Shown here: piece after piece, positions 7,719 to 42,900 of the stretch | Layout of the letters: each line of letters opens with the position of its first letter | How positions within the stretch are numbered: the stretch's first letter is position 1 | Assembly (NCBI GenBank): GCA_035652395.1 | Contig: DASRDX010000009.1 | Location: 419,739 to 462,702, forward strand | Source of the DNA: Candidatus Paceibacterota bacterium | GTDB taxonomy: Bacteria > Patescibacteriota > Minisyncoccia > Phycocordibacterales > CAJBRS01 | Direction: 5' to 3' | Length of the DNA: 42,964 bases | Position numbers and translations under genes: made by a program | Notes under the pieces: generated by a model | Seen by the model: only the letters and a program-made list of their open reading frames with translations | Database searches by the model: none | Told to the model about the DNA's origin: nothing

Positions 7719-7733
7719 GCTGCGGGTCAGGGA
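7717..7733 (-). pseudogene. 3'-end fragment of tRNA-Gln
   Basis: TTGCTGCGGGTCAGGGA is an exact 17-nt copy of the 3' end of the intact tRNA-Gln (7874-7890): the acceptor 3' strand plus part of the T-stem, with 4 nt past the discriminator. The rest of a tRNA is absent. Confidence 0.75.
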
Positions 7734-7835
7734 AAAGATTTCACATTGTCGGAATATTGGAGTGTGGAGGCTCTTTAGCCATAGAATTACTCTCCCCTGC
7801 TGGTATTGTTCGAGAGTTCGCTGACACAACACCGA

Positions 7836-7873
7836 GTAAAATTTTGAATATGAAAATATATTCAAAATTTTAC
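7836..7873 (-). terminator. AT-rich 16-bp hairpin after tRNA-Gln
   Basis: GTAAAATTTTGAATAT (7836-7851) and ATATTCAAAATTTTAC (7858-7873) form a perfect stem with a 6-nt loop, starting 3 nt beyond the tRNA discriminator base. It is probably a terminator or a 3'-processing structure. Confidence 0.55.
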
Positions 7874-7876
7874 TTG

Positions 7877-7947
7877 CTGCGGGTCAGGGACTCGAACCCC
7901 AATACCATGCTCCAGAGGCATGTGTCCTACCATTAGACGAACCCGCA
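7877..7947 (-). tRNA. tRNA-Gln(CTG)
   Basis: Full cloverleaf: acceptor TGCGGGT/ACCCGCA, anticodon stem CATGC/GCATG with loop CTCTGGA (anticodon CUG), T-arm GGGG-TTCGAGT-CCCT. Discriminator G; CCA is not encoded. Fragments of this same tRNA lie on both sides (7717-7733 and 7970-8133). Confidence 0.95.
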
Positions 7948-7969: not shown

Positions 7970-8133
7970 GTCAGGCACTCGGTCACAAATAATTTTCTGC
8001 TGAAAATTTTCGCGACCCCGCCTCACTCGCCCAAAGCCGTTAAGGCGAACTCCGGCCTTGCGCTTGGGCCCCACCCCAAGCTCACCCCAATGCCATGCTT
8101 CAGTGAGGCATTCCTACATTAGACGAACCCGCA
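7970..8133 (-). pseudogene. tRNA-Gln copy interrupted in the T-loop by repeat A
   Basis: Reading the minus strand, 8133-8084 matches the 5' part of tRNA-Gln (acceptor, D-arm with GCGGGTTCGTCTAATG, a distorted anticodon arm, TTGGGGT). Then about 100 nt of unrelated sequence containing the structured repeat follows, and then CGAGTGCCTGAC (7981-7970), which matches the tRNA from the T-loop onward with one mismatch. The 3' acceptor strand is lost. It cannot give a functional tRNA. Confidence 0.6.
7981..8031 (-). repeat. tRNA-linked structured repeat, copy A
   Basis: Minus-strand hairpin: arms 8017-8002 and 7997-7981, tetraloop AGCA, one bulged A and two G-U wobbles. It is preceded on the same strand by GAGGCGGG. 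Copies B (36875) and C (37100) share the fold, the bulge and the wobble positions. Confidence 0.8.
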
Positions 8134-36686: not shown

Positions 36687-36714
36687 AATGTATTCCCTAT
36701 TGTAATGCAAAAAG

Positions 36715-36761
36715 TTCTTCCTGCCATCCGGAAAGCGCCTTACCAAGTGAGCTAATGGTCC
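36715..36761 (-). pseudogene. 5' half of a tRNA-Ala(GGC)-like gene
   Basis: From 36761 downward it matches tRNA-Ala(GGC) through the D-arm (CCATTAGCTCACTTGG identical) and a distorted anticodon arm still containing GGATGGCA, then stops: no T-arm or acceptor 3' strand. It lies immediately upstream of the intact tRNA. Confidence 0.7.
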
Positions 36762-36782
36762 GTGATTTTATTTTATCAAATT

Positions 36783-36854: not shown

Positions 36855-37005
36855 GTGGGCACGGGAGAGGATTTGGTCACAAATATTTGCCTGCTGGCAA
36901 ATTTCGCGACCCCGCCTCGCGCCGACGCGCTCCGGCTTTCAAATCTCCCCGCGCCTCTCAATGATTACCTCTCGATGTGCCCCCGGCACATCTTGCGGAT
37001 CATTG
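36855..37005 (-). repeat. tRNA-linked structured repeat, copy B, with tRNA-Leu fragments
   Basis: Order on the minus strand after tRNA-Leu: a hairpin GATGTGCC-GGG-GGCACATC framed by AATGAT/ATCATT; an inverted copy of the tRNA-Leu 3' part ending at the T-loop (36955-36938); GAGGCGGG; the core hairpin (36911-36875, loop AGCA, one bulged A, two G-U wobbles); then a direct copy of the tRNA-Leu 3' end starting at the T-loop (36875-36855). The two tRNA pieces form an inverted repeat around the core. Confidence 0.75.
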
Positions 37006-37087
37006 TGGGCACGGGGAGATTTGAACTCCCAATCCTTGCGGAATACGTCTCTGAAACGTACGTGTATACCAGTTCCACCACGTGCCC
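37006..37087 (-). tRNA. tRNA-Leu(CAG)
   Basis: 82 nt with a long variable arm (class II). Acceptor GGGCACG/CGTGCCC, anticodon stem TACGT/ACGTA with loop TTCAGAG (anticodon CAG), T-arm GGGAG-TTCAAAT-CTCCC. Discriminator A; CCA not encoded. Confidence 0.95.
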
Positions 37088-37099
37088 TATTTATAGTGT

Positions 37100-37145
37100 G
37101 GTCACAGATAATTTCCTCGCCGGTCGCTCAGAAATTTCCGCGACC
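37100..37145 (-). repeat. tRNA-linked structured repeat, copy C
   Basis: Between tRNA-Ile and tRNA-Leu. Arms 37145-37131 and 37115-37100, a longer 15-nt loop, the same bulged A and two wobble pairs as copies A and B, preceded by GAGGCGGG. The sequence linking it to tRNA-Ile contains an inverted copy of the tRNA-Ile 3' end (37187-37196). Confidence 0.78.
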
Positions 37146-37186
37146 CCGCCTCGCCTGTTTTTGTTACTACAAAAACATGGCTGCGG

Positions 37187-37242
37187 CTCGCACCAGTCTC
37201 CAAAAACCTAAAGCAGTTTAGGTTTTTGTTGCTGGTGCGCGC
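37187..37242 (-). other. Hairpin that takes in the tRNA-Ile 3' end
   Basis: CTGGTGCG-GC (tRNA-Ile 3' strand, 37232-37242) is complementary to GC-CGCACCAG (37187-37196), and CAAAAACCTAAA pairs with TTTAGGTTTTTG (37201-37228, loop GCAG). It could act as a terminator, or as an alternative fold that hides the acceptor strand before processing. Confidence 0.55.
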
Positions 37243-39937: not shown

Positions 39938-42900
39938 TTAATTGGAAGAGGTTGAAGAAGCTTCGGCAGATGGAGTGGATGTATCGGGAGCAGGTGGAGT
40001 TGGTTCCGGCGTAACTGTATCAGTGGAAGAAGCACTCACCGAAGAAGTAGAGGAAGCGTCTTCTATTACAGTATGGTCGCTTCCGCCGTTCTCTCCCCCA
40101 TTATCTGGAACAATCACTGTATTGTTGTTGGAATCAGTAGTAATTATTGTGCCACTACCCGGTGCGCCAGTTGCATCGCTACTGGTAGGGGTTGAAGTTG
40201 CCGATTCATCTGGACACTCGCCCGGGTCAGTCTTCATTGTTCCGTTTTGCATAGTAATGCAATAGTAGTCTCCCGTGACTTTATCCTTAATGGTAATCCC
40301 TTCTTCTACTTTTACATGCTTTACCGTCAATCTCTCCACAAACACATTCTTCAAGTAAGCAATACCATCCACTACCTCAGCGCCAAAGGACTGAAGAGCT
40401 CCGAGAATCTCTCCTCCAAGAGAGGTGTGATTAGTTCCGAGATTGGTGAGAGATTCAATGGAAGAGACTCGGATCTCTAGGGAGGCTAGGGCTTCAGTGG
40501 TGGAAGCATTTTGATCCTCGAGCTTCTTTGAAAGAGCCTGTATTCCTACTAGAGCAATGCCGGCGGGATCAATGGTGGAGATGGAGGTGTTGGAGTTTCC
40601 AACGTGAAAGGTCTCATAGAAGTCTTGAGCTACCGGACCAATGTGTTTAACTGTGGAGTCTTCACTCTTGTAGTTCCATTCTGTGACTGGGAGAGAATTG
40701 ATTTTCTTTAAGATATCTTCTCCATCTAATGGAGTGAGGTTCTCCTTGAGATTCCTGTCTGAAGCGTTAGTCCAGGTACCTCCGGTTGAGAGGCAGGCGC
40801 CGTTTGAGGCGAGGACGCTCTTGTCTCCATTAATAGAGAGCCAGCCATTGCAATATCCTATCTGTGAGGAAGAGGAGGTGGCGTTAGTGAGGCAGGCGCC
40901 GAAGGCGGAGGAACAGAGACCACTTGCCGTATTACAAAAACCCACTGCGGTTGTGGAGGTGCCAGAGGCGATATTAGTATCTCCAAAAGCCGAGCTGTGA
41001 TAACCGCTCGAGGTATTACTATAGCCGGAAGCAGAGGAACAATTGCCGGAGGCATTATTCAAACGCCCAAGAGCTGTAGCACTTAACCCGCTGGCGGTGT
41101 TTTGAGCACCGAAAGCGGATGCGCAAGTGTTAGAAGATGTATTTAAAAACCCGAACGCTGACGAACGATTGCTGGAGGCGGTATTTTGATATCCAAAAGC
41201 GGAAGCACAACCTCCAGAGGCAATGTTACGATGACCAAAAGCATTTGCACAAGTACTACTAGCTATATTTAAAAATCCTATGGCTGAAGCTCCTATGGCT
41301 GAAGCGGTGTTTAAATATCCAGAGGCCGAACTTCGACATCCATTTGCAATATTACAAAAACCAAACGCACTTGATGAGGTACCGGAGGCAGTATTGGTAA
41401 AGCCGAAAGCGGAGCTACAATTTCCCGTTGCTTTATTTTGATTTTCAAAAGCTGTTCCCGCTCCAAAAGCGGAGCTGTAACCACCACTGGCTAATGTATA
41501 GCCTCCAAAAGCATAGCTATTATCGCCACTCGAACAGTCTTTGTAGCCAAAAGCAGCAGAACTAAGGCCAGATGATTCATTGCAGTTACCTAAAGCAGAA
41601 CTGTTACTTCCTGAGGAAAAATTATTTATTCCAAAATCTATAGAGGAAATACCGCAAGCTCGGTTACTCATTCCAAAAGCTAAACCTTGGCAACCCGACG
41701 CAGTATTATTTGCTCCAAAAGCGGAACTGCTGATTCCAGAAGCGTTGTTAGAATAACCGGAAGCGAGGCTGTATATTCCACTAGCACTATTGTGGTAACC
41801 AAAAGCAGAACTCCGACAACCCGAAGCAGTATTTATTGCGCCGAAAGCCGCACTTTGATAACCCGTAGCATGATTATAATAACCTGAAGCAGAACTATAG
41901 TATCCAGAGGCTGTATTAAAATTACCCAAAGCTGAACTTAGATACTGACCGCTGGCAGTGTTGCAGTAACCGAAAGCTGAACTTCGATATCCTCCTACGG
42001 TATTGTAGTAACCAGAGGCGGTACTGTTACCTCCCGAAACTGTATTACAAAACCCAAGAGCAGTAGCGCCTGCATTAGAGGTTGTGTTATGAAAACCAAA
42101 AGCGGAAGAGTTACAGGCTGTGGCAAAGTTGTAATATCCCGAAGCAGTGGATGCTATGCCGGAAGCTAGATTTTGATTACCCAGAGCAGTGGACTGATTG
42201 GCGGTAGAACAATTTCCAAAACCCACTGAGGTTGAAAAAGGGGCGCATGCTACGTTGTTACCTCCGAACGCATTGGAATTATCGCCTCCCGCGTGGTTGG
42301 CGTAACCAACGGCGACAGAGTAAGAACCCGAAGCAGTATTGCTATTTCCAAAAGCACTGCCGTATTGAGCCGAGGCGGTGTTGTGATAACCAAAAGCATT
42401 AGTTTGATATCCACTAGCTGTATTGCATATACCAAAAGAAGATGCAAAACATCCAGAACTATATCCCTCAATCTGTACTGATAAGGAACTATTTCCAATC
42501 GCACAAGAATTGGTCCCCATGGCTATTCCTCCATTTCCGAGGGCGCAGTTACGGTTTCCTATGGCTATGCTGGAATTTCCGGCCGTGACAAATCCGGTAT
42601 TATTAGCATTACCAATAGCAATACTTCCATTAAAGGCAGCGTTAGCAACATTACTAATTCCTATTGCAATATTCGAATATCCTCCGACTGCTCCCAGGGC
42701 ACAATTGGAATTACCAATCGCTACTCCACAGGTAGTAGTGGCACAATTGCGCCAACCGAAGACTGAACTACAATTTCCACTCGCCACATTGCAATAGCCC
42801 ACGGCACTAGCGTTCGTTCCAGGAGCAGAGTTTCCAAACCCCACCACAATTGGATTGAGGCTGTTGACGTTAGTGGAGAAGTTGTTCTGGATGTTTGTAA

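Follow-up and report, generated by a model that had tools for sequence, protein, structure and literature searches.

The repeat that lies behind the tRNA-Leu gene in the window (the whole stretch of 42,964 nucleotides analysed here, carried by a genome of 794 kb that its relatives place with the Patescibacteria) is one copy of what is apparently a family of abundant, gene-less mobile elements that has gone undescribed so far. The elements are roughly 100–200 bp in length, contain no open reading frame, and supply essential tRNA genes with a new 3′ end, the sequence of which apparently comes from other genomes. They are present in about 80% of the sampled genomes of one order (119 of 148, by a covariance model built here, with 0–26 copies per genome), and they span Patescibacteria and Elusimicrobia.

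Repeat B at the tRNA-Leu Gene

The arrangement described in the first-pass annotation of this DNA is borne out. On the minus strand, which holds all of the features of the repeat, an intact tRNA-Leu gene is followed by a terminator-like hairpin, the 3′ half of the tRNA in inverted form (X′), a core, and the 3′ half once more in direct orientation (X2). The tRNA-Leu(CAG) gene (37005–37087) is recognized by ARAGORN and Rfam and, given an empty site in the congener G001, is read as a target gene restored to function. The tRNA-Leu 3′ half from T-loop position 57 on (X, 37004–37022) is read as a copy borne by the element. The hairpin GATGTGCC..GGCACATC (36974–36992) corresponds to the position of the terminator in other copies; its sequence, and the folding of X on X′ in those copies, identify it as the probable tip of an X–X′ palindrome. 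X′ itself (TTCAAATCTCCCCGCGCCTC, 36938–36957) complements the target from T54 on, as judged from its sequence and from a comparison of own with other tRNAs that is given below. The core (36875–36936) is predicted by covariation to form a three-way junction whose stem P1 is made by X′ and X2, and the covariance model matches repeat B at C9:456601-456688 with 80.2 bits. X2 (36855–36874) starts with AAATC, abuts the tRNA-Pro gene directly, and by alignment to the G001 empty site is the displaced and now degenerate original 3′ half of the tRNA-Leu gene.

Both tRNA pieces had been said to break at the same position of the T-loop. They are indeed both broken within the loop, but not at the identical base: X2 runs from R57 and X′ reaches to T54, such that X′ is 3 nt longer and adds the complement of T54–C56 (GAA, the reverse complement of TTC). 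In the same part of the window, positions 36695–36762 hold the 5′ half, now degenerate, of another tRNA-Ala copy, beside an intact tRNA-Ala gene.

Structure of the Element

Read in the sense of the target gene, the order is X, a terminator, often a hairpin termed P0 with a loop that is frequently AACTGCTT, then X′, the core and X2, and the core follows the consensus A-GCC-GGAG-P2-GAGGC-GG-GGTCGC-P3-GTGACC. X and X′ together make one long hairpin that has the terminator at its tip and from which P0 branches at the boundary between T-stem and acceptor; in an alternative pairing, X′ joins X2 and closes the core as P1. Covariation backs P1, P2 and P3, with 14 of 22 pairs changing on both sides as compared to 9.1 ± 1.4 for shuffled and 6–9 for slid pairings, and with 92.6% versus 79% for paired cells, although the P1 covariation arises in part because both arms of P1 copy the tRNA. 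P2 reads GCC/GGC in some copies and GGC/GCC or GAC/GTC in others, and P3 likewise alternates between GGTCGC/GTGACC and GGCCGC/GTGGCC. The conserved fold of the core belongs to the sense strand: a G·U pair is invariant (35/35), and in all 35 cases folding is better for the sense than for the antisense strand.

Break Points and the Inverted Arm

Blind detection recovered X2 in 84 copies. In 79 of these it starts 16–21 nt short of the tRNA end, with the break in the T-loop, and in 63 it directly follows GTTC, with other sequences preceding it elsewhere. The first-pass annotation had named scattered break points as the pattern that would speak against insertion, and what is found is a cluster at 56|57 together with a second class of breaks at the tRNA 3′ end, to which many of the 52 copies without an X2 match belong. 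P1 is weak in this second class.

The last three bases of X′ track the T-loop triplet of the gene behind which the element lies, being GCA where the loop has TGC and GGA at the one locus where it has TCC. Since the end of X′ follows the loop in this way, the overhang of 3 nt is a rule and not a matter of chance. Over 79 copies, X′ matches its own tRNA in preference to other tRNAs both in its T part (P = 2e-26) and in its acceptor part (P = 5e-7).

Further Copies in the Window

The core word GCGACCCCGCCTCGC occurs three times in the window, as compared to an expectation of 0.04. Copy A (7970–8133, minus strand) is an element within a broken tRNA-Gln copy, and the split in the T-loop that had been noticed there is confirmed, in that the 5′ part ends in ..GGGGT and the 3′ part begins with GAGT after the core. 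It comprises the tRNA 5′ part (8084–8133), a hairpin (8062–8083), the core (7981–8057), and a 3′ remnant (7970–7980). Neither X nor X′ is present, and an intact tRNA-Gln gene (7876–7947) comes next. The same layout, an element in a broken gene copy with an intact copy behind it, is seen at tRNA-Arg in G001, at a tRNA-Glu and at 5S rRNA, and is referred to here as class A.

Copy C (37100–37232, minus strand), which is absent from the earlier annotation, stands behind tRNA-Ile and has an orthologous copy in G001. It belongs to class 2, the class that breaks at the tRNA 3′ end rather than in the T-loop, and consists of a hairpin (37200–37227), an inverted arm (37189–37198) and a core (37100–37187).

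Occupied and Empty Sites

That the elements insert site-specifically, as had been suggested from the window alone, is supported by sites in the congener that are empty and have an intact T-loop, and by the concentration of break points. In G001, a single base separates the tRNA-Leu and tRNA-Pro genes, and the tRNA-Leu 3′ half and its flank align with X2 and its flank in the window; X2 is therefore the original gene end and the unit from X through the core is the insert. In G000, the sites at Leu-CAG, Leu-TAA, Tyr, His, Asp and Arg-TCG hold an element where those of G001 are empty, the opposite is true of Val-TAC and Lys-CTT, and at tRNA-Ile both genomes carry one. The unit at tRNA-Lys-TTT in G001 has a second copy at a site that is not a tRNA gene (91% identity over 146 nt), and this site has only CGGACA in common with the tRNA end.

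A syntenic empty site was sought for the orphan copies and was not found. At three loci (L008 1350–1650, L189 and L190), an orphan copy has as its neighbour a repeated motif, CCCTATGGGGTCAT, which is found again in G001 and is possibly the 3′ end of an RNA gene.

Target Genes Other Than tRNAs

The same core occurs at the T-loop of what was read by eye as tmRNA (TTCGATTCCCGCCATCTCCAC) at several loci, and at the 3′ end of the protein-coding gene topA, where several relatives have it inserted at one and the same codon (..GT|KTIPERC). One further element (L276, near 580 on the minus strand) stands at the 3′ end of a gene ending in AGCACCCATCAGCCGCGC and is accompanied by a displaced copy of that end.

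The similarity of X and X2 extends over about 20 nt in tRNA genes and about 60 in topA; identity is 91% inside the tRNA and 38% just past its end. When X of topA is compared with the untranslated X2, the ratio of synonymous to non-synonymous codon differences is 15:0 in G432 and 10:3 in G000, and it is 13:1 in G033, but there at a different hairpin element. In two young topA cases a single synonymous codon separates X from X2, and the X2 of a sixth case (G032) has decayed. A simple local duplication of the target site is disfavoured because the similarity stops at the gene end and because three topA pairs differ synonymously. The latter differences, being almost only synonymous, suggest that the element brought a foreign gene end with it; on the simplest reading of these sequences, X would have a coding history in another genome and would have come in together with the element. 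Alternatively, frequent precise excision could have kept X2 under selection, and, if so, the element would again be a live mobile one.

The different hairpin in G033 (L225) is of a third kind, without the core, and is found at the same topA codon with a displaced, coding-like gene end. Behind topA in G420 there is a gap of 2.2 kb, the open reading frames of which show no integrase-bearing element.

Family Size and Distribution

The genome that carries the window has about eleven copies by the core pattern, nearly all behind tRNA genes and one in 5S rRNA. Across GTDB species the pattern was found in 81 stretches, from many Parcubacteria, from Saccharibacteria and Berkelbacteria, and from 15 records titled as Elusimicrobia. 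A total of 183 unique copies were mapped with their flanks, 136 of them behind an intact tRNA gene, with 20 isotypes represented; at some loci the elements form tandem arrays.

Searches of Rfam with the window and eight further loci returned only tRNA and rRNA at the gathering score, and no credible match to the element was obtained for 36855–37232 with E values up to 10. A strict scan for the core in viral sequences gave no matches, and looser scans led to eight contigs; among the matches listed, only L317 contains a real copy and is an Elusimicrobia-like contig, the others being chance matches in GC-rich phage DNA, so that a viral origin was rejected. No element was found in plasmid and phage records, and the literature searched contains no description of such elements.

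Proposed Mechanism and Alternatives

We consider it likely that the unit [X–terminator–(P0)–X′–core] constitutes an integrative element without genes, which enters its target in the way of a tRNA island when a folded circular form of it undergoes crossover. The layout parallels both tRNA-integrated islands and integron cassettes, and for this reason a single crossover of a small folded circle is proposed. In its free form the element would be a small circle, with X and X′ paired into a rod and the core as its cap, and one crossover between the core|X junction and the junction of the target 5′ part with X2 would produce the insertion, leaving the target gene functional and displacing X2, as islands integrated in tRNA genes do. 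As R″ does in a folded integron attC, X′ would supply the second strand of the site or else guide the element to its target. Class A copies, which have neither X nor X′, and class 2 copies, with their weak P1, count against the proposal.

The recombinase would act in trans, and a host tyrosine recombinase is the leading candidate, a choice that, taken alone, we regard as possible but somewhat doubtful. Such an enzyme is encoded in all 14 of the element-bearing genomes tested, and is the single one in 10 of them; it is a weak candidate because every control genome has one too. No recurrent mobility gene was found near roughly 80 element loci, which speaks against an autonomous form. A small protein with HTH and LAGLIDADG-like features is encoded within 4 kb of five loci (L079 6026–6695, L046, L076, L094 and L078), possibly by coincidence.

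How X′ comes to match a new target is a separate matter, for which templated correction within palindromes is a possibility. More tentatively, and in our view with the chances rather against it, X′ may be a natural re-addressable guide, in the form of RNA or folded single-stranded DNA, that chooses the insertion site and is rewritten when the target changes; if this were true, one core could reach most tRNA genes as well as tmRNA and topA and leave them unharmed. The elements in general, as a folded structure with a target-matching arm, would constitute a minimal means of integration, and possibly a new programmable insertion system.

Among the alternatives to crossover of a folded circle, RNA-guided insertion would make the X′–core transcript a guide RNA, with X′GAA as the guide and the three-way junction as its scaffold, and would have an enzyme cut or reverse-splice 3 nt inside the end of the guide. 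This would account for an X′ that crosses the break by exactly 3 nt and tracks the T-loop triplet, for the invariant G·U pair and the sense-strand specificity of the fold, and for an orphan insertion whose site matches the arm; yet the element loci show no linked gene for a nuclease or an RNA-binding protein, X′ and the core sit behind the tRNA terminator, and guiding alone leaves the carried X unexplained, so we judge it unlikely. Single-strand transposition by an HUH/Y1 enzyme, of the type that yields palindromic IS200/IS605 derivatives, would have the GAA at the hairpin foot pair with TTC in the target. The hairpin ends, the 3-nt pairing at the insertion point and the lack of terminal inverted repeats are as one would expect of it, but the direct copies X and X2, the long target-matched arm and the many unrelated targets are not, and it is very improbable that the elements move in this way.

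The first-pass annotation had also offered copying by template switching from a tRNA 3′ end, to which reverse transcription or fold-back at the terminator may be added. X, terminator and X′ do form a near-perfect fold-back with the terminator at its tip. The claim is nevertheless not supported by topA, a protein gene that carries the element and whose X and X2 differ synonymously, the two ends apparently having gone separate ways as coding sequence prior to being joined. Reverse transcriptase is also not co-distributed with the elements, since a search for PF00078 gave no match in five of nine element-bearing genomes, including G314 with eight strict-pattern copies and G129 with four; in this the elements differ from retroelements such as group II introns, retrons and DGRs. 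We hold such an origin to be highly improbable. It is scarcely credible that the elements are not mobile at all and represent an RNA with a regulatory or processing role that is attached to tRNA genes, or a local duplication. The conserved, covarying structure, its nearly constant sense orientation with the tRNA, and the orthologous tRNA-Ile copy in two species agree with that idea; against it are eight tRNA sites that differ in occupancy between congeners in both directions, as well as the tandem arrays, the non-tRNA copy, the topA copies and the range of 0–26 copies per genome. Neither chance nor local duplication fits the repeats, and the same holds for plain terminators and for decayed islands.

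Comparison with Known Systems

Islands and phages integrated in tRNA and tmRNA genes share several traits with the elements: the 3′ end of the tRNA, tmRNA or protein gene is restored by sequence that the insert carries, a displaced fragment remains in the same orientation, and tandem arrays are formed. An intact tRNA gene with a same-orientation 3′ fragment, and a restoring sequence that is carried, are the marks of a tRNA island and are present here. Williams reportedly distinguished, in 2002, a T-loop and a 3′-end sublocation of integration within tRNA genes, the same two that the elements use. The elements differ from tRNA islands in having no integrase or any other gene, in measuring roughly 100–200 bp where islands exceed 2 kb, and in having one structured core at many targets along with an inverted target end. 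The Islander search rejects candidates that lack an integrase or are shorter than 2 kb (PMC4383910), so a search of this type would miss them.

With integron cassettes and their attC sites (PMC2727003), the elements have in common a target-matching box that comes first and a folded, strand-specific structure that comes last, a first arm that complements the box across the cut, and variable terminal hairpins. In contrast to cassettes, they possess no conserved R boxes, no GTT cut (G|TTRRRY) and no cargo gene, may lack an attI platform, and have many dispersed targets and a long target-specific arm. Elements that use host Xer recombinases, of the CTX phage type or as Xer modules, rely on a host enzyme in trans, as the present family would, and CTX phage integrates as single-stranded DNA (PMC3089051). 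These, however, insert at dif, whereas the elements described here are in tRNA genes, topA and other gene ends. Palindromic elements derived from IS200/IS605 are short, gene-less, hairpin-rich and interspersed, and in this they resemble the present family; the latter differs in its target-matched arm and carried gene ends, and has no fixed tetranucleotide target.

Other Repeats in the Window

The window also contains a whole stretch of imperfect 42-base repeats (40920–42790). A second, unrelated hairpin family, GAGTAATTCTATGGC..GCC..ACTCC, is represented at 7721–7875 (minus strand) and at L173, a fragment of a tRNA-Val 5′ half in G000; it, too, lies between a tRNA gene and a displaced tRNA 3′ end, with the break near the T-loop.
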